Notes under the pieces: model-generated | The model's input: the letters and a program-made list of their open reading frames with translations, nothing else | Database searches by the model: none | What the model was told of the DNA's origin: nothing | Shown here: piece after piece, positions 3,768 to 29,467 of the stretch | Numbering within the stretch: position 1 is the first letter of the stretch | Layout of the letters: the number at the start of each line of letters is the position of its first letter | Position numbers and translations under genes: made by a program | Assembly: GCA_025351745.1 (NCBI GenBank) | Contig: JANXVI010000070.1 | Location: 1 to 34,641 of the forward strand | Direction of reading: 5' to 3' | Length of the DNA stretch: 34,641 nucleotides | Origin: Rhodoferax sp. | GTDB lineage: Bacteria; Pseudomonadota; Gammaproteobacteria; Burkholderiales; Burkholderiaceae_C

Positions 3768-5261
3768 ATGACCGCATCCTCCGCACTGGCGCCATTGAAC
3801 GCCACCTTCAAACGCCTGCACCACTTCAACCACCTAGCCAGCATCGCCAGCTGGGACCAGGCCGCCATGATGCCGACCAAGGGCAACGAGGCACGCGCAG
3901 AGGCCATGGCCGAGCTGCAGGTGCTGATGCACCAGACCTTGACTGATCCCGCACTCAAGGCGCAGTTCGACGCTGCACAGCAATCGAATCTGGCCGAAGC
4001 CGACCAGGCCAGCCTGACCGAAATGCGCCGCGAATGGGCAACGGTCAACCGCCTGCCACAGGATTTGGTAGAAGCGCAAAGCCTGGCCGGTGCGCGTTGC
4101 GAACACGCGTGGCGCACCCAGCGCAAGGCCAACGACTGGCAAGGCTTTTTGGAAAACTTTCGCGAGGTCGTCAAACTGGCGCGGCAGGAGGCTGAGTTTT
4201 TGGCCGATGCCACCGGCAGCACGCCCTACGAAGCGCTGATGGACAAGTTCGAGCCGGGCATGTCTGGAAAAGCTATCACTGCATTGTTTGGAGATGTTAA
4301 AACTTGGTTGCCCGACCTGATCAGCAAGGTGATTGCCAAGCAAGCGTCCGAAGTCGTGGTGCAGGCCACTGGGCCTTTCCCCATCGACAAGCAACGCGCC
4401 TTGGGTGTCGAAGTCATGGGGCTGCTGGGCTTTGACTTTGAAGCGGGTCGGCTGGACATTTCCACCCATCCGTTCTGCGGTGGTGTGCCACAAGATGTGC
4501 GCATCACCACACGCTACAACCCGGACACATTCGCGCCCAGCCTGATGGGCATCATCCACGAGACCGGCCACGCCCGCTACGAGCAACGCCTGCCGCGTGA
4601 CACGCTGTACCTGCCCGTAGGCCGTGCGCGGTCCATGGGCATACACGAGAGTCAAAGCCTGTCGTTCGAGATGCAGTTGGCCCGCAACCCGGCTTTCCTG
4701 CAACTGATTGCGCCGCTGGTGAAAAAGCACCTGGGCGACCAGACCGCTTTTGATGCGGAAGACCTGGCACGCATGATGACCCGTGTGAAGCGCGGCTTTA
4801 TCCGCGTCGATGCGGATGAGCTCACCTACCCGGCCCATGTGATCTTGCGTTTCGAGATCGAACGTGCGCTGATTTCCGGTGATATAGATGCCGACGACAT
4901 CCCCGCACTGTGGACCGCCAAGATGCAGGAGTACCTAGGTGTGGATGTGGCGGGCAATTTCGACCACGGGTGCCTGCAGGACATCCACTGGCCGATGGGC
5001 ATGTTCGGGTATTTCCCCAGCTACACGCTGGGTGCCATGTACGCCGCGCAATATTTCGCGACCATTCGCAAGCTGCACCCGGACATGGACACCCGCATTG
5101 CCAGTGGCGACCTGTCACCGGTGATGGACTGGCTGGATACCAACATCTGGAGCCAGGCCAGCCGCTGGTCCACCGATGCACTGGTGACGCGCGCTACCGG
5201 CGAGCCGCTCAATGCCAAGCACTTTCGAAAACACCTGGAAGCTCGGTACTTGGCAGCATGA
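3768..5261 (+). CDS. Carboxypeptidase M32 (carboxypeptidase Taq family metallopeptidase)
   Basis: 497 aa; IIHETGHARYEQ zinc motif (HExxH), GIHESQSL, HPFCGG and typical M32 length. Confidence 0.93.
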   Translation: MTASSALAPLNATFKRLHHFNHLASIASWDQAAMMPTKGNEARAEAMAELQVLMHQTLTDPALKAQFDAAQQSNLAEADQASLTEMRREWATVNRLPQDLVEAQSLAGARCEHAWRTQRKANDWQGFLENFREVVKLARQEAEFLADATGSTPYEALMDKFEPGMSGKAITALFGDVKTWLPDLISKVIAKQASEVVVQATGPFPIDKQRALGVEVMGLLGFDFEAGRLDISTHPFCGGVPQDVRITTRYNPDTFAPSLMGIIHETGHARYEQRLPRDTLYLPVGRARSMGIHESQSLSFEMQLARNPAFLQLIAPLVKKHLGDQTAFDAEDLARMMTRVKRGFIRVDADELTYPAHVILRFEIERALISGDIDADDIPALWTAKMQEYLGVDVAGNFDHGCLQDIHWPMGMFGYFPSYTLGAMYAAQYFATIRKLHPDMDTRIASGDLSPVMDWLDTNIWSQASRWSTDALVTRATGEPLNAKHFRKHLEARYLAA

Positions 5262-5306
5262 GAAACGCCTACCCACCATGCCCATCAGGTGCTAGCCATG
5301 GTGCCC

Positions 5307-5332
5307 AAAAAAACCCCGCTGATGCGGGGCTT
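5307..5332 (-). terminator. Rho-independent terminator of the PEP-CTERM gene
   Basis: CCCCGC-tgat-GCGGGG hairpin with an A-run on the + strand left side (U-run on the minus transcript), just downstream of the minus-strand gene. Confidence 0.75.
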
Positions 5333-5355
5333 GGTCAGTCAATTCGTCGCAATAC

Positions 5356-5958
5356 TTAGGCGGCGAGCGACGACTTGCGGTTCTTACGGCGGGTCACAGC
5401 ACCCAGAATACCCAGACCAGCCAACATCATGGCGTAGGTTTCGGGTTCAGGAACCGCGTTGACAGCCGAGCTCACACCGGACAGGTGCACGCTATATGCG
5501 GAGCCCATATCGCCGTGATTGGCTGGTTGCGTCCACTGCGCCAGTGGAATTGCTGTCTGGCTATCGAAGTTGAAGCCTTGGGCCAAAGTCGTGCCGTTGG
5601 CAAAATTGTTGTACGTTGCAATCGTGAACTTGTAGCTACCGGCAACCAGGTTGGCAAATGTCAATCCGGAGTCAAAACGCGTTTGTCCGGGGGCGATGCT
5701 GGCATTGTCATCGTTTTGGCCGAGCAGCGACCAACCGGTGTTGGTCTGAGACCAGACGGCGGTAATGGGGTCGAAATTGATCCCGTCCAGGAATGAGTCG
5801 GTCCAGACCTTGACATTGGTGGCGTCCGACGCCAATTCAAAATTGATTTGAATAACGTCTTTGTGGGTGGCAATGTTTCCATTGAAGTCAAACTGTGCAG
5901 CGTGCGCGCTGGCAACTGCGGTCAAGGCCAAAACCAATGCGAGTGGTTTAAAGTTCAT
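5356..5958 (-). CDS. PEP-CTERM sorting domain protein (DVUA0089-like)
   Basis: Signal peptide MNFKPLALVLALTAVASAHA; C-terminal VPEPETYAMMLAGLGILGAVTRRKNRK is a classical PEP-CTERM sorting signal. Confidence 0.92.
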   Translation of the reverse strand: MNFKPLALVLALTAVASAHAAQFDFNGNIATHKDVIQINFELASDATNVKVWTDSFLDGINFDPITAVWSQTNTGWSLLGQNDDNASIAPGQTRFDSGLTFANLVAGSYKFTIATYNNFANGTTLAQGFNFDSQTAIPLAQWTQPANHGDMGSAYSVHLSGVSSAVNAVPEPETYAMMLAGLGILGAVTRRKNRKSSLAA

Positions 5959-6089
5959 AAATGATTGTTTTCTCTAAGATTGGATAAAACCCCGCTCTCC
6001 CGAGCAAGGTTTGGTTTTGAACACCGGTCTTGCGTAGGGCAAGTCTCAGCGACGCGCCGCAGTGTAGGTGGGGACGCACGAACTGCCTA

Positions 6090-6105
6090 TAGTCCGAACG
6101 GACTA
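6090..6105. promoter_or_regulatory. Perfect 16-bp palindrome (candidate operator)
   Basis: TAGTCCG-AA-CGGACTA in the intergenic region between the PEP-CTERM gene and the CsgG-like gene. Confidence 0.45.
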
Positions 6106-6144
6106 ATGCCCCATCGATGGCCGCTCAACGCCCATTTGAAGGCC

Positions 6145-7005
6145 TCACAAGGCTTTGGTGGATGTCTTCCTGGACGCCACTGGCGGCGGCAAATCTTTTG
6201 CCATTAATTCACGCGCCTGCACCACCAGTTTGTTGTGCGCATCCAAAAACGCAGCGGCAATAACCTTGCCCTCGTTGGTATTGCTCCAGCCCATGCCGCC
6301 CGCGCCACCCATACCGCCGAAGGCCAAGCCCCCCAGGCCCAAGTCTGTGGTGCGTGCAGCACCGGTAGCGGCAGCAACCTGCTCCGTGGTTTCGTTGTCG
6401 GTCAGTAGTAGCGCCACCTGCGCTTCCTTGAACTTGATCTGCTCGACGATGCCAATCAACGCGCCGAGGTCGCGCACGACAGGGATATGGGCCAGCACGC
6501 CGCCCAGGCTGCGCCCGGCGTCCTGCTCGCTAAAAGTCAGGTTGGGAATCAGCGTGTACTGTGCCTCGTAACCCTTGCCTTTCTCCACCGTATTACCGTG
6601 CTTGCGCAGGATTCCGCTGTCTTTCAACTGCTGCTCCTGGATCGTTCCGTGCAATCCGGCTGAGCGGTCCACCACCCGAAAGCACCCGCTTTGCTGTGCC
6701 AGCAAACGCACCAGTGGCACGGGCGAACTGGGCAGGTTGTAACTGCTGCTCATCACATAGCCATTGGGGTTTTCGGCCAGAGCCAGCGTGGCTACCGGTG
6801 CATCGCATTTGACCAGCGACTGGTTCGCACCTTTGGCACCTGCCGGGCCAGCGGAGCCGGTGACCTCGGAGCTGCCGCCACCCAACTCGGTTCCTTTCTT
6901 GCCGCATCCGGGCAAAACCGCAAGTGAGCACAACATGACCGCAAGCACCAAGGGAGCGCGGGCAAAAGAAGGTGGGTGAAAACGAATCAGAACGGATGAA
7001 GGCAT
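6145..7005 (-). CDS. CsgG/HfaB-like lipoprotein
   Basis: ORF 6145..7050; ATG at 7005 preceded by AAGGA; lipobox LAVLPGCGKKG; FRVVDRSAG...QYTLIPNLTF and glycine-rich segment resemble CsgG-family proteins. Confidence 0.7.
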   Translation of the reverse strand: MPSSVLIRFHPPSFARAPLVLAVMLCSLAVLPGCGKKGTELGGGSSEVTGSAGPAGAKGANQSLVKCDAPVATLALAENPNGYVMSSSYNLPSSPVPLVRLLAQQSGCFRVVDRSAGLHGTIQEQQLKDSGILRKHGNTVEKGKGYEAQYTLIPNLTFSEQDAGRSLGGVLAHIPVVRDLGALIGIVEQIKFKEAQVALLLTDNETTEQVAAATGAARTTDLGLGGLAFGGMGGAGGMGWSNTNEGKVIAAAFLDAHNKLVVQARELMAKDLPPPVASRKTSTKAL

Positions 7006-7068
7006 GGATGGGTTCCTTGAAAAGGCGGGCGAATGGTAACCGAGTGCCAAGCCAGCAGCAGGCAGAGG

Positions 7069-7300
7069 GCTTCACCCGCAAATTGGGCATGATGCCCCTG
7101 GACTGGTCTAATTCCGTTTCCAAATCATTTCTGTCTAGGCGTGAAGCCGCAGACAGTGCTACGGCACGGCAAGCCGAAGCAACACCGACAGGGATGATCT
7201 AGAAATGGAATAGCCCCGTGTGGGTGAAGGGCCAGGACATAGGCCTGGGTCATCACATACGCCATGTCACGCTGCTCAACGTTGCGCGCCCTGATTGGCT
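7069..7300 (+). pseudogene. Remnant of a WS/DGAT acyltransferase gene, interrupted by a ~100 bp insertion
   Basis: 7070-7112 (cttcacccgcaaattgggcatgatgcccctggactggtct) and 7206-7285 (gtgtgggtgaagggccaggacata...catcacatacgccatgtcacgctgc) align to 9060-9173 of the intact WS/DGAT gene; the interval between them has no counterpart. Confidence 0.82.
7111..7211. mobile_element. Candidate small non-autonomous element (MITE-like, 101 bp)
   Basis: Begins ATTCCGTTTC and ends GAAATGGAAT (9/10 inverted match); internal hairpin CTGTCT...AGACAG; interrupts WS/DGAT-homologous sequence. Confidence 0.4.
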
Positions 7301-7805
7301 GTCCAGGCACGCCCTAGTTATCAACTTGGACTGAAATCAACTTGCCGATGGCCGTAGTCGTCTTCCATCTGCCTGAGCCCATCGGGTACGCATGCGCACC
7401 ACCAATGGACTGTATCGAGTGAACAGGGGCCGAAGCGCCGAACACGTGTCGCGCCTTTGTGTCCCAACCCTGAAAGTTGCCTGCATCACATCAGTGCATT
7501 GCTGGCCGAACAAGGCGAGGAGCGGATGACTGCAAAAATCACGCTCTGACCATGAAACCTTGACCGCTGTATATCAACAACACCCAAAATCAAAATTTTG
7601 AAATTTACAAAAAATAGGTTGCTTTATCGCAAAACCTGCGCATTCAGTGTAGGATTTTTGTACGTAAACAGTAGCTGTACTCCATAGTGCCTCCAAACAG
7701 AAATAATGTGCAAAAACGTAGAATTGGGAAAGCAACTGTATTGTGCTATTGAAAAGAGAGCGACAGTCATGCACAATCTATGAGTCAATATATGGGACGT
7801 TCAAA

Positions 7806-8687
7806 ATGAAATTACTAGTCTGCTTGGGATTGAGTGCCGCTTTACTAGCTGGATGCGGGGGCAACGGAGACAGTAGGGGAAACGACTGCACATTAGGCGT
7901 CAATTCGTGCAACGTTCCACCCGTTGCGCGCATAGCAGCAACACAAGCCGTCCTGGTGGGATCAAACGTCGCACTGGATGGCAGCAGCAGTTCCGACGCT
8001 AACAATGACGCTATCAGTTATTTTTGGTCCATTCTGCAAACTCCGAGCGGCAGCACGGCCACCCTGACGACTACAACTTCGGTCAAAACAACATTTGTTC
8101 CTGACCGGGTGGGGACGTATGTGATAACCCTCGTCGCCAGTGACGGTAAGAGCACCGGTGCGTTGGCGACAACCACTGTGACTGCAAGCAATACCAATTT
8201 GACTATCAGTTCGACCTCATTTTCAGAGGGGGGCATTATCCCCATGAGAATAGCAGGGCGGATTGTGGGTGGTAACAACATCTCTCCACAATTGAACATT
8301 TCCGATGTCCCAGTCGGCACCAAACGCTTCGCGATCATCATGGACGATGAGACCGCACCTTGCCAGACCGGTCTGAGCGCCTGTCGTCATTGGAGCGTAT
8401 TGAATCTTCCACTGGCAAAGACAGCTATCGCTGAAGGCGAAGACCTGTTGCTACAGAGTGGTGTTGTCTATGGCACCAACTACATGGTTGGCCCCGGCGG
8501 TGTTGCTGGGGTCGGCTACGCCGGTCCAGTTGCGACATCGCAACACACCTACAAATTAACCGTTTATGCGCTTACGGACAACGTAACTTGGGTTACAGCC
8601 ATACCGGAATACAACAGAGCCAAGTTTGAGCTGGATTTCAAGGCTTTCATTATCGGCAAGGCCACGTTGACAGGCTTCTACCCGTAA
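7806..8687 (+). CDS. Lipoprotein with PKD/Ig-like domain fused to a YbhB/YbcL-type PEBP domain
   Basis: ATG 7806 gives MKLLVCLGLSAALLAGCGG lipobox; PPVARIAATQAVLVGSNVALDGSSSSDANNDAISYFWS is PKD-like; SPQLNISDVPVGTKRFAIIMDDETAP..HWSVLNLP is PEBP-like. Confidence 0.8.
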   Translation: MKLLVCLGLSAALLAGCGGNGDSRGNDCTLGVNSCNVPPVARIAATQAVLVGSNVALDGSSSSDANNDAISYFWSILQTPSGSTATLTTTTSVKTTFVPDRVGTYVITLVASDGKSTGALATTTVTASNTNLTISSTSFSEGGIIPMRIAGRIVGGNNISPQLNISDVPVGTKRFAIIMDDETAPCQTGLSACRHWSVLNLPLAKTAIAEGEDLLLQSGVVYGTNYMVGPGGVAGVGYAGPVATSQHTYKLTVYALTDNVTWVTAIPEYNRAKFELDFKAFIIGKATLTGFYP

Positions 8688-8697
8688 CGACGATTGA

Positions 8698-8728
8698 ATC
8701 CAACCCGTACTATCTTTATGGGTTGGAT
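8698..8728 (+). terminator. Hairpin downstream of the PKD-PEBP gene (possible terminator)
   Basis: ATCCAACCC...GGGTTGGAT, 9-bp perfect stem 11 bp after the stop codon; no clear T-run. Confidence 0.4.
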
Positions 8729-8752
8729 GGCTTGTTGTAAGCCACGGGCATA

Positions 8753-8885
8753 GGCAATGGCCTTACTTTTGTTGGTATTGCGCCAGCCCATGCCTTCGGC
8801 GCCCCCATACTGCCGAAGGCCAAGCGACCCCGACCTAAGACTGGGGTACGTGCAATCCTACTGAGCGGTCCACCACTAGCGAAAG
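8753..8885 (-). pseudogene. Remnant of a CsgG-like lipoprotein gene (second copy of the 6145..7005 gene)
   Basis: 8753-8854 aligns to 6256-6358 (shared gttggtattg.(c/t)ccagcccatgcc and ccgaaggccaagc), then jumps to sequence matching 6648-6680 (cgtgcaatcc..ctgagcggtccaccac). Confidence 0.8.
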
Positions 8886-8894
8886 GCTGTAGCC

Positions 8895-10448
8895 ATGAAA
8901 CATCTCAGCGGCGTGGATTCCGCGTTTTTGCACCTGGAATCGCCGGAAATGCCCATGCACATCGGGTCGCTCAATGTGCTGGATCTGCCTGAGGGCTACA
9001 GCGGTGACTTCTTTGAAGACACCAAGACCTACATTGAACAGCGCCTGCACCTGGCCGAGGTCTTCACCCGCAAATTGGCCTTGATGCCCTTGGATCTGTC
9101 CAACCCGGTGTGGGTGGAGGACGAAGACATAGATCTGGACTACCACATACGCCACGTCACGCTGCCCAAGCCCGGCAGCAACCGCCAGCTTCAACAATAC
9201 GTAGCGCGCCTGCATTCCAGCCTGCTGGACCGCAGTCGGCCTTTGTGGGAGTTCTTTGTGATCGATGGTCTCAAGAGCGGGCAGGTGGCGCTCTATAGCA
9301 AGCTGCACCATGCCGGCATCGATGGCCAGGCGGGGGTGGCGGTGGCCCAGGCCATCTTTGATCTGACCGCTACCGGGCGGGTCATCAAGGCGCCTCGCCC
9401 CCGCGCACGGCGCAATCAGTACCAGTTGGGCGTTGCCGAGTTGCTGGGTGCCGCCGTACGCAACACCTTAAACCAGTCGGTGGGACTGGTCAAATCGCTA
9501 CCCCTGATCGTCAAGTCGGCCAAGTCGGCACTGATTCCAGCCAAGGGCGAGAACGGCAAGCGCGACTGGTCACTGCCCAAGGACTTCCGGTTGTTTGCGC
9601 CCCGCACCTCGCTGAACGTGGCCATTACCAACCAACGCACGTTCGCGGGCCGTACGGTCCCGCTGGCTGAAGTCAAGTTCATCGCCAAGGCGTTGCAGGT
9701 GTCTTTGAACGACGTGGTCATGGCCACGGCGGCCGGGGCGCTGCGCAGCTACCTCAAGGAAAACAACGAACTGCCAACCCAATCCCTGTCTGCGGCCGTG
9801 CCAGTAAGTCTGCGTGCCGAGGGCGACACCACGTCAAACAACCAGGTCAGCATGGTCACCATGAGCTTGGCCACTGACATCAAAGACCCGTTGCAGCGTA
9901 TCCGCAAAATCAACGAGCTGTCGGCGGGCACCAAAGCCAAGATGAGCCGCTTCAAGGCTGCCATTCCAACGGACTTTCCGCTGCCTGCGGCGCCTTGGCT
10001 GATGTCGGCCGTCGCCTCTTTGTTCAGCCGATCCCGTTTGGCCAACGTAATGCCGCCGCTGGCCAATCTGGTCATCTCCAACGTGGCAGGTATTCCGGTG
10101 CAGCTGTACTTTGCCGGTGCCAGGGTCGTCAGCTACTACCCGGTCTCCATCCCCGCGCACAGCATGGCCTTGAATGTGACCGTGCAAAGCTACAACGGGC
10201 GGCTTGACTACGGCCTGATTGCCTGCCGCCGCGCACTGCCGGATATCAACGACCTTGCCGACGGATTTCTGGCCGAGCACCGCACGCTGCTGGATTTGGC
10301 CCAAGCGCAAACACCGGCGTTAGCGCCCGCCGCAGTCGAAGTCTTGGCGGCACCTGCAAAGCCCAAGGCCGTGCCTGCAAAACCAGCACCGACAGCGACC
10401 AAACGGCCCACAGCCAAGCGAGCCAAACGCCTGACAGCAGTTGCCTGA
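8895..10448 (+). CDS. WS/DGAT family O-acyltransferase (wax ester synthase/diacylglycerol acyltransferase)
   Basis: MKHLSGVDSAFLHLESPEMPMHIGSL N-terminus, catalytic LHHAGIDGQAG (HHxxxDG), NVMPPLANLVISNVAG; 517 aa with a Lys/Ala/Pro-rich tail. Confidence 0.94.
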   Translation: MKHLSGVDSAFLHLESPEMPMHIGSLNVLDLPEGYSGDFFEDTKTYIEQRLHLAEVFTRKLALMPLDLSNPVWVEDEDIDLDYHIRHVTLPKPGSNRQLQQYVARLHSSLLDRSRPLWEFFVIDGLKSGQVALYSKLHHAGIDGQAGVAVAQAIFDLTATGRVIKAPRPRARRNQYQLGVAELLGAAVRNTLNQSVGLVKSLPLIVKSAKSALIPAKGENGKRDWSLPKDFRLFAPRTSLNVAITNQRTFAGRTVPLAEVKFIAKALQVSLNDVVMATAAGALRSYLKENNELPTQSLSAAVPVSLRAEGDTTSNNQVSMVTMSLATDIKDPLQRIRKINELSAGTKAKMSRFKAAIPTDFPLPAAPWLMSAVASLFSRSRLANVMPPLANLVISNVAGIPVQLYFAGARVVSYYPVSIPAHSMALNVTVQSYNGRLDYGLIACRRALPDINDLADGFLAEHRTLLDLAQAQTPALAPAAVEVLAAPAKPKAVPAKPAPTATKRPTAKRAKRLTAVA

Positions 10449-10492
10449 TCCGCTGCGACACACCCCAAGGCGGCTCTCGGGCCCCCGTTTTT

Positions 10493-13477
10493 TTATGCGC
10501 CTAGCAGCTGACGCAGCACGAAAGGCAGGATGCCACCGGCCTGGTAGTAATCCACCTCAATCGGCGTGTCGATGCGCAATAACAGCGCGTGCCGGGTTTG
10601 TGATCCATCGGCACGGGTGATGACCAGTTGGGCCTCGCTTTGCGGGGTGAGCTTGGCATCGGGGACGATGTCCACCGTCTCCGCGCCAGTCAGTCCCAGG
10701 CCGGCCCAGGTGTCACCCGCCTTGAACTGCAGCGGCAACACCCCCATGCCCACCAGGTTGCTGCGGTGGATGCGCTCAAAGCTCTGCGCCACCACCGCCT
10801 TGATGCCCAGCAGGGCCGTACCCTTCGCCGCCCAGTCGCGGCTGGAACCCGTGCCATATTCCTCGCCCGCAAAAACCACGGTGGGTGTACCCGCTGCCTG
10901 GTAGCGCGTGGCAGCTTCAAAAATGGACACGTGTTCTGCGGCACCTGCCCCATCGGCTGCGCCCTGGTAAAGGGTAAAGCCGCCCTCCTCCCGCGAGCCA
11001 TCGGCCGCAGCCGGCAACATCAGGTTCTTGATACGGACATTGGCAAAGGTGCCGCGCACCATGACTTCGTGGTTGCCCCGGCGCGCGCCGTAGGAGTTGA
11101 AATCGGCCTTCAGCACGCCGTGCGCCAACAACCACTGCCCGGCCGGTGAACTGGCCTTGATCGAACCGGCGGGCGAAATATGGTCGGTGGTGATGGAGTC
11201 GCCAAACAGCGCCATGATGCGGGCGCCTGACACGCGTGGTCCAGCAGCAACTCCACCCGAAGCGTCTATACCATTTAGGCCGCTAGCCCTCGTGGAATCT
11301 ACGTGAGAAGCTACTGGTTTGATAGCAAATCCATCAAAGAAGGGCGGCTCGGCGATGTAAGTGCTGGTGGGCCAGGTATAGGCTTGGCCCGACACGCCTT
11401 TGATCTTGTCCCACAACTTTCCAGGCTCGGTGGTGACCTTGGCGTAGTTTTTACGGAAGGCCTTGCCGTTCATGGCAAACTTCAGCAGCGCATGGATCTC
11501 TTCGCTGCTGGGCCAGATATCGCCCAGGTAAACGTCCTTGCCACCTGTGCCCTTACCCACCGGCTGCGTCATCAGGTCGCAGTTGACCGTGCCCGCAATG
11601 GCATAGGCCACTACGAGCGGAGGGCTGGCCAGGAAGTTGGCCTTGATATTTGGGTGAATGCGCGCCTCGAAGTTGCGGTTGCCCGACAGCACAGCGGCGC
11701 AAACCAGATCGTTCTTGCTGATGATCTCGTTCAGTTCAGGCGTCAGGTCGCCAGAGTTGCCGATGCAAGTGGTACAGCCATAACCGGCCAGCGCAAAACC
11801 CAGTTTTTCCAGATATGGCAGCAGGCCGGTTTGGGTCAGGTACTCGGTGACGATGCGCGAGCCAGGCGCCAGTGAAGTCTTGATGTGCGGTTTGACCTTC
11901 AGCCCGGCCTCCACCGCTTTCTTGGCCAGCAAACCAGCCGCCAGCAACACACTAGGGTTGGAGGTGTTGGTACAACTGGTGATGGCGGCAATCAGCACGT
12001 CGCCGTGGCCCACGGTAATGTCCGTTCGGCCACCGCCCGCTGCGGTAGCCGAGACCGAAGCCGATGCCGCCCCAGGGGCGTCGTGGTGGGCCGCCAGCGT
12101 GGGTTTGTTGGCCACCATCTCCACCACCTCACGTGCAGCACCCAGTGCGGTTGGCGGCGCCTGCGGCACACGTGCCGCCTCAGCTCCACCAAACGCCCGC
12201 ACATGGTGGCGGGTATGGAACACAGCAGCGTGCTGGTTGAAGCCGTTTTCCGCGTTGGACTTTGAAAAAAGCGATTCAAACTGGGCGGCCACCTTGCCCA
12301 ATTCGATACGGTCCTGCGGGCGCTTGGGGCCGGCCAGGCTCGGCGTCACCGTGCCAAGGTCCAGTGTCACGACCTGCGAGTAGTCAATCTCCCCTGCCAC
12401 GGGGACACCGAACAAGCCCTGCTCCTTGAAGTAGGCTTCAAACGCTTGCATCTCGGCCTGCGTGCGCCCGGTGCCTTCAAAGTATTCCATGGTCTTTTGA
12501 TCGACCGGGAAGAAGCCCATGGTGGCGCCATATTCAGGCGCCATATTCGCAACCGTCGCGCGGTCTGGCAGGCTCAGCGTGCGCGTGCCTTCGCCAAAGA
12601 ACTCGACAAACTTTCCCACCACCTTGTGCCGGCGCAATATCTCGGTGACGGTTAGCACCAGGTCGGTGGCGGTGACGCCTTCGCGCAATCGGCCACGCAT
12701 CTCAACGCCCACTACGTCAGGTGTCAGCAAGTAGACCGGCTGGCCCAGCATGGCGGCCTCGGCCTCGATGCCGCCCACGCCCCAACCCACCACGCCGATG
12801 CCGTTGATCATGGTTGTATGGCTGTCAGTGCCCACCAGCGTGTCGGGGTAGTACATCGGGTCCAGCTTCTTGCCCTTGACCATGGGCTGCTTGGCCTTGT
12901 GCACTCCGCGCGCCAGGTATTCCAGATTGACCTGGTGGACGATGCCAAAGCCCGGCGGCACCAGGCCAAAAGTGTCAAAGGCCTGCATGCCCCATTTCAT
13001 GAATTCGTAGCGCTCGCGGTTGCGGTGGAACTCCAGCTTCATGTTCAGGTCCAGCGAGTTCTTTTTGCCATAGTGGTCCACCATCACAGAATGGTCTACC
13101 ACCAGGTCCACGGGTACCAGCGGCTCAATACGGGCCGGGTCTTGACCCAGTCGCTTGGCGGCGCTGCGCATGGCTGCAAGGTCGGCCAAGAGCGGCACGC
13201 CGGTAAAATCTTGCAGCACCACGCGCGACACCACAAAGGGGATTTCGGCGGTGCGCTCTGCGTTGGGTTGCCAGTTGGCCAATTGGGCTACGTGCTCTGG
13301 GGTTACCTTTTTGCCATCGCAATGGCGTACCACGCTTTCCAGTACGATCCGCAGCGACATCGGCAGGCGGTTGACATTGGGAAAGCGCTTGGCCAACGCG
13401 GGCAGCGAATAGAACGCCCCGGTCTTGCCAGCGGCAGTTGTGAAAGACTTCACGGTATGAGAAAAGCTGTGGGGCAT
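10493..13477 (-). CDS. acnA: Aconitate hydratase AcnA
   Basis: [87 protein letters not shown]. Confidence 0.97.
11262..11332. repeat. Comamonadaceae-type short interspersed repeat inside acnA (in frame)
   Basis: Minus-strand sequence tttgctatcaaaccagtagcttctcacgtagattccacgagggctagcggcc has the 'gctatcaaa...agtagct...gagggctag.ggcc' layout remembered from Comamonadaceae repeats; encodes an atypical segment [25 protein letters not shown]. Confidence 0.6.
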
Positions 13478-28451: not shown

Positions 28452-29312
28452 CTACTTGTACTTTGAGTCAATATCCCAAACGGCTGTCTGAACCAGGCGT
28501 TGCACCATCGTATCCAGACCGACCCCACCTTTGGCGCTTTCGGAAATACCCATCACACTGGTGCGCGTTGCGCCAACTTCCATCTTCAACTCTTTGTAGC
28601 CTTGTGCCACTTGCTCCGTGGTGTTGGCGTTCATAATTTTGTACCGCATGCCAATGAGCCATACGCCACTGGAGTCGGCAGTCTTCACCGAGCCGACCAC
28701 ATGGCCTGTCGCAGCGCCGGCACGGGTGCCGGACAACGAGCCGATCAAGCCACCGATCGCCTGGCCGTCGAAACCCTTGGAGTTCTCTGCAATTTGTTCG
28801 GCCTTCAGGATGTCGAACTTGACGATCCATTTGGTTGTCTTGAGCTTGCCCACTTGCATGGTCTTGCGGGCCTGTGCGACGTTACCCAAATTGTAGGCAA
28901 GCGTGATTTCATTCAACAAATTTCCAAGATTGGCCCGCTCAAGCACAGTGAAGTTAGCCTGTGACAACTCGAGTTCACCAAAGTCGGCAATGTTGTTTGG
29001 CAAGAATCGCTGAGTAAAGCTTGCATTGTTGCTCTTGATGTCACCCGGGATGACGATCAACGCTGGCCCTTTTTTGCCTTTGTTCTTGTATTCAATTTCC
29101 TTGTACGCTGCGGCATCAGCGGCGGCATTCGCTTTGTTCGAAGTGGAGGTCCCGGCAGTTGGCGAAGCGTTTCCAAAACTTGGGCCACTGGTGGCGGCAG
29201 CGGGGGCCGATTGCGCTGTATCTGCAGCCCTTGGCGCCGTTTCCATGCAGCCAGCAGCTGTAAAGGACAATAAGGCAATGAGAAATGAACCCGTCAGCAA
29301 TCGTGTACGCAT
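28452..29312 (-). CDS. CsgG/HfaB family lipoprotein
   Basis: MRTRLLTGSFLIALLSFTAAGCMETA lipobox; ANFTVLERANLGNLLNEITLAYN and TKWIVKFDILKAEQIAENSKGF; GVWLIGMRYKIMNANTTEQVAQGY. Confidence 0.8.
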   Translation of the reverse strand: MRTRLLTGSFLIALLSFTAAGCMETAPRAADTAQSAPAAATSGPSFGNASPTAGTSTSNKANAAADAAAYKEIEYKNKGKKGPALIVIPGDIKSNNASFTQRFLPNNIADFGELELSQANFTVLERANLGNLLNEITLAYNLGNVAQARKTMQVGKLKTTKWIVKFDILKAEQIAENSKGFDGQAIGGLIGSLSGTRAGAATGHVVGSVKTADSSGVWLIGMRYKIMNANTTEQVAQGYKELKMEVGATRTSVMGISESAKGGVGLDTMVQRLVQTAVWDIDSKYK

Positions 29313-29467
29313 TTTGTCTACATCCTGTTTCAAAAAAGTTGCCGTCTGGCAAACGGGAAGAGTCTACGACTTTTTTGACGGGATCCAAATGCGGGTACGG
29401 ATTGATCAGGGAGCCTTCACCCAGCTAACGAACCCGAGTCTCTTCGCGATCCATCGGTACATTTCAA

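Follow-up and report, generated by a model that had tools for sequence, protein, structure and literature searches.

The window analysed here is a stretch of 34,641 nucleotides from a Rhodoferax genome (GCA_025351745.1, contig JANXVI010000070.1, positions 1 to 34,641), a draft of 498 contigs that is 92% complete with 6.85% contamination. Part of it carries three intact genes, for a CsgG-like lipoprotein, a PEBP (YbhB/YbcL-like) lipoprotein and a WS/DGAT (wax ester synthase/diacylglycerol acyltransferase), interspersed with decayed gene fragments, a dispersed repeat and a transposase relic. The features are as follows, copies being numbered according to the probable duplication discussed below:

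6067..6108, no strand: putative ancestral intergenic marker with palindrome ATAGTCCGAACGGACTA; 42-bp local alignment to the M32 peptidase-PEBP intergenic region of relative G079
6109..6140, no strand: probable scar of a deleted first PEBP copy, the CsgG-like 3' end following directly after the marker; a whole PEBP gene lies here in relatives
6145..7005, minus strand: intact CsgG-like lipoprotein gene, putative copy 1, retained; Pfam CsgG, 90% identical to relative G003
7051..7102, plus strand: WS/DGAT copy-1 remnant, piece 1, whose start corresponds to about codon 50 in the intact gene; 84.6% identical to 9043-9094
7103..7213 (core 7108-7211), no strand: dispersed MITE-like repeat of about 104 bp inserted in the remnant; copies elsewhere in the genome and genus
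7214..7279, plus strand: WS/DGAT copy-1 remnant, piece 2; 80.3% identical to 9104-9169
7280..7628, plus strand: remains of the 3' part of a transposase gene of the IS256 family (Mutator type), with a frameshift and stops; tblastn match to L065, a record from a related genome
7743..8687, plus strand: intact PKD-PEBP (YbhB/YbcL-like) lipoprotein gene, putative copy 2, retained, relocated compared with relatives; Pfam PBP
8753..8876, minus strand: remnant of the second CsgG-like copy, shortened internally by a deletion of about 290 bp; 80.6% and 92.9% identical to 6256-6358 and 6648-6675
8877..8894, plus strand: retained WS/DGAT ribosome-binding region, where the putative copy-2 deletion stops; common to G003 and G079
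8895..10448, plus strand: intact gene for a predicted WS/DGAT acyltransferase, putative copy 2, retained, with the HHAGIDG active-site motif; TIGR02946 and Pfam

The product of 8895-10448 is, from its sequence, a clear member of the WS/DGAT family and a predicted acyltransferase: it matches TIGR02946 over its full length (446 bits against a cut-off of 310), contains both Pfam domains (WS_DGAT_cat, E 5.6e-69) and has the HHxxxDG active-site motif, located in the translation as HHAGIDG. Compared with other WS/DGAT proteins nothing about it is unusual; what differs is the upstream intergenic region, most of which is deleted in the window. The product of 7743-8687 shares the C-terminal domain of the PEBP / YbhB-YbcL family (Pfam PBP, E 1.3e-19) but has a PKD domain and a lipoprotein-type N-terminus ahead of it. 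The product of 6145-7005 is weakly assigned to the CsgG family by a PF03783 match above the cut-off (E 8.7e-6, 25.6 bits against 20.8), accompanied by a lipoprotein-like N-terminus (LPGC); it had no PDB match to any solved CsgG structure at E 0.01 and no curli genes were seen near its gene, and we make no claim that it forms a curli secretion pore. A second lipoprotein, encoded at 28452-29333, has a CsgG match below the cut-off (19.8 bits against 20.8).

The similarity between intact genes and fragments was tested by self-blastn of positions 5500-11000. On the CsgG-like side, 8753-8854 matches 6256-6358 (80.6% identity, E 2.5e-21) and 8849-8876 matches 6648-6675 (92.9%, E 4e-6), so that the remnant consists of two separate stretches of the gene brought together by the deletion of about 290 bp; on the WS/DGAT side, 9043-9094 matches 7051-7102 (84.6%, E 5e-11) and 9104-9169 matches 7214-7279 (80.3%, E 1.5e-11), the two pieces being separated by an insertion of about 110 bp at 7103-7213 and both being covered by an alignment at the protein level. 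All four matches are direct, with identical order and orientation in both places. Both decayed fragments are therefore real and 80-93% identical to the intact genes; the fragments of the two genes in conserved order and orientation that had been proposed from the sequence by eye are borne out, with the correction that the WS/DGAT fragment, placed there at 7069-7300, starts at 7051 and ends near 7279.

Orthologues were sought in 103 genomes of the genus. The CsgG-like gene has orthologues of 85-92% identity in G003, G079, G087 and G022, the only genomes among the 103 that also contain close PEBP orthologues. Each of the four has one set, arranged as M32 peptidase, PEBP, CsgG-like, WS/DGAT, aconitase and glutathione-reductase-like gene (in G087 the position of the peptidase was read from record L081), and both flanks of the rearranged part, with the M32 peptidase on one side and the aconitase and glutathione-reductase-like genes on the other, are collinear with them. 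G003 and G079 provide the control that had been sought, namely a relative with one intact divergent CsgG-like/WS/DGAT pair, adjacent in both genomes. The two lie about 4 kb apart in G022 and G087 (L046 5885-9819 and L048 5398-9274), with other genes in between whose translations read as a secreted protein, a periplasmic binding protein-like product and a two-component system. A relative with two full sets, which would represent the intermediate state, was not found among the 103 genomes. The DVUA0089-family PEP-CTERM gene at 5356-5958, intact in the window, is represented in G003 by a remnant only and in G079 by a short 3' piece, as judged by eye.

The gene that has changed place is that for the PEBP, which lies directly upstream of the CsgG-like gene in all four relatives; in the window it is absent between the PEP-CTERM gene and the CsgG-like gene and sits instead between the two remnants. 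The 42 bp at 6067-6108 match the region in front of the PEBP gene in G079, with none of 500 shuffles giving as good a local alignment, and the homologous 3' end of the CsgG-like gene starts only 32 bp further on, so the ancestral place of the PEBP gene is recognisable and empty. Within this marker, the palindrome at 6089-6105 occurs once in the whole genome and is conserved, with one base different, between the peptidase and PEBP genes of G079; it is a possible candidate for an operator. Remnants of PEBP coding sequence, or of the peptidase, PEP-CTERM or aconitase genes, were found neither at the junction 7280-7743 nor at 5955-6150. Since a first PEBP copy has thus left no coding remnant, we infer its former existence and its loss from the position of the surviving gene and from the retained intergenic marker.

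With regard to age, on the alignment columns that the remnants cover both resemble the window's own genes more closely than those of any relative sampled. In trees the CsgG-like and WS/DGAT remnants join the window's copies with UFBoot values of 92 and 85, respectively, this support being moderate because the remnants are short (about 120-130 bp), and the WS/DGAT remnant shares five window-specific bases as against two ancestral bases kept. As the remnants are nearest to the window's own copies by both distances and trees, the duplication is most likely lineage-specific and later than the split from G003/G079.

Taken with the gene order of the relatives, these observations make it probable that PEBP-CsgG-WS/DGAT was duplicated in tandem at this locus and that complementary copies were then lost. 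The ancestor would have had, as in G003/G079, PEBP (plus), CsgG-like (minus) and WS/DGAT (plus) between the genes for the M32 peptidase and aconitase, and head-to-tail copying of the whole block after the G003/G079 split would have given P1 C1 W1 P2 C2 W2. P1 would then have been deleted outright; W1 would have lost its 5' part and received the repeat of about 104 bp and the IS256-family element; and C2 would have been truncated by deletions in which most of the intergenic sequence ahead of WS/DGAT disappeared as well. Survival of C1, P2 and W2 would produce the new order CsgG, PEBP, WS/DGAT, or C, w', P, c', W when the remnants are included. That a single event was responsible, and that the losses came in this order, are likewise suppositions of the scheme. 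The outer end points of the duplication have been erased.

The original prediction, which described a duplicated two-gene unit with reciprocal loss, agrees with this in the duplication and the losses, supported by the remnants, the relatives' gene order and the trees, and in the copying of the CsgG-like and WS/DGAT genes, and departs from it in extent: the PEBP gene between the fragments had been omitted, and the duplicated unit most likely comprised three genes. In favour of a two-gene duplication, with the PEBP gene moved separately between the copies, it can be said that visible coding remnants come from the CsgG-like and WS/DGAT genes only and that the transposase relic adjoins the PEBP gene; nevertheless, we consider it unlikely, as it needs an additional independent move of this gene from its ancestral place into the exact duplication junction. 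The three-gene block, for its part, requires the PEBP gene to lie exactly between the two remnants, where it is found, and the adjacency of the PEBP and CsgG-like genes in all four relatives also speaks against a two-gene unit. The second set might instead have been transferred horizontally from a close relative and recombined beside the resident set, with the same losses following. Horizontal transfer is a known route to extra gene copies in bacteria, and the divergence of about 20% between remnants and intact copies also speaks for it, but because no sampled relative comes as near to either remnant as the window's own genes do, a donor would have to be closer than all of these, and we regard such an origin as very improbable. 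A misjoined metagenome contig, which the fragmentation of the draft and its contamination could bring to mind, is scarcely credible: the deletions, stops, repeat, IS relic and divergence of about 20% are not products of read misjoining, and the collinear flanks also disfavour an artefact.

The probable tandem duplication of the three-gene block belongs to a known kind of event, tandem duplication-random loss (TDRL), with which it shares the copying of an adjacent block in tandem, remnants lying between the retained copies and an altered gene order that involved no inversion; complementary loss, visible as remnants for the CsgG-like and WS/DGAT genes and read from position and marker for the PEBP gene, is a probable further likeness. 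The cases found in a partial literature search are mainly from animal mitochondrial genomes (for example PMC3283314, PMC5745709), whereas here a bacterial chromosome and protein-coding genes are concerned, a difference that is no proof of rarity. Small non-inverting rearrangements in bacteria rarely leave a readable record, although gene order changes readily; with the remnants, the intergenic marker and the relatives that kept the old order, one such rearrangement can be followed through most of its steps. As the fossil of an ordinary process the locus is instructive; the new biology in it is modest.

In copy 1, the deletion begins about 46 bp before the CsgG-like gene and reaches to about codon 50 of WS/DGAT. 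The repeat inserted in the remnant is present many times over, both in this genome and elsewhere in the genus; identity is about 90% for the copies at C148, C132 and C89 in this genome and 75-90% across this genome and other genus members. Two copies match the end of the window's repeat in reverse complement over 28-30 bp; the inverted-repeat tool, at its default length limit, gave none. Most copies end in ATTCCGTTTCCAAATCA ... TGATTTAGAAATGGAAT, imperfectly inverted by eye and MITE-like. The transposase relic directly follows the WS/DGAT remnant, at the duplication junction, and matches by tblastn (E 2e-14) the intact transposase in L065 (Pfam Transposase_mut, E 3e-103), one of the intact copies in related genomes. 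No relic matching that at the junction was seen at the outer duplication ends, and insertion of the element after the duplication accounts for the relic equally well as an IS-mediated duplication.

The deletion in copy 2 stops about 18 bp short of the WS/DGAT start: of the divergent intergenic region, only the ribosome-binding part survives; TAG(C/T)GAAAGGCTGT(A/G)GCCATG is common to the window and G003 and, from 8879, to G079. The PEBP and WS/DGAT genes now share a strand, WS/DGAT lying 207 bp downstream, and the space between the two contains one terminator-like hairpin. By consensus, no Sigma-70-like promoter was found before WS/DGAT in the window or in G003, and 5000-10600 gave no Rfam match to a structured RNA. 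The expression of WS/DGAT might have been rewired so that storage-lipid synthesis depends on read-through from the PEBP gene, an idea that we hold to be rather doubtful; if true, it would represent the birth of an operon by tandem duplication and loss.

Retention of the pair had also been taken to suggest a functional link between the CsgG-like lipoprotein and WS/DGAT. We examined flanks of up to 10 kb on each side, shorter at contig ends, of the 80 loci with the closest CsgG-like homologues in sequenced genomes, two of which are records of this Rhodoferax group. Neither WS/DGAT nor PEBP occurred in the examined flanks of any of the 78 loci outside the group, so the two genes appear to be neighbours only in a few Rhodoferax genomes. 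On this synteny, with the interruption of about 4 kb in G022 and G087, the link is not supported and we rejected it; retention in the window is no argument for joint function, and a retained gene pair is poor ground for such a link when wider sampling shows the neighbourship to be limited to a small group of one genus. The flanks of 68 of the 80 loci contain aspS and/or nudB, and its place beside aspS and nudB in most relatives is a point in which the CsgG-like gene differs from the CsgG family. The conserved aspS/NUDIX surroundings may be a better lead to the function of the CsgG-like protein; in Acidovorax (L074 7325-11227), as in many relatives, its gene lies between aspS and a nudB-like NUDIX gene.
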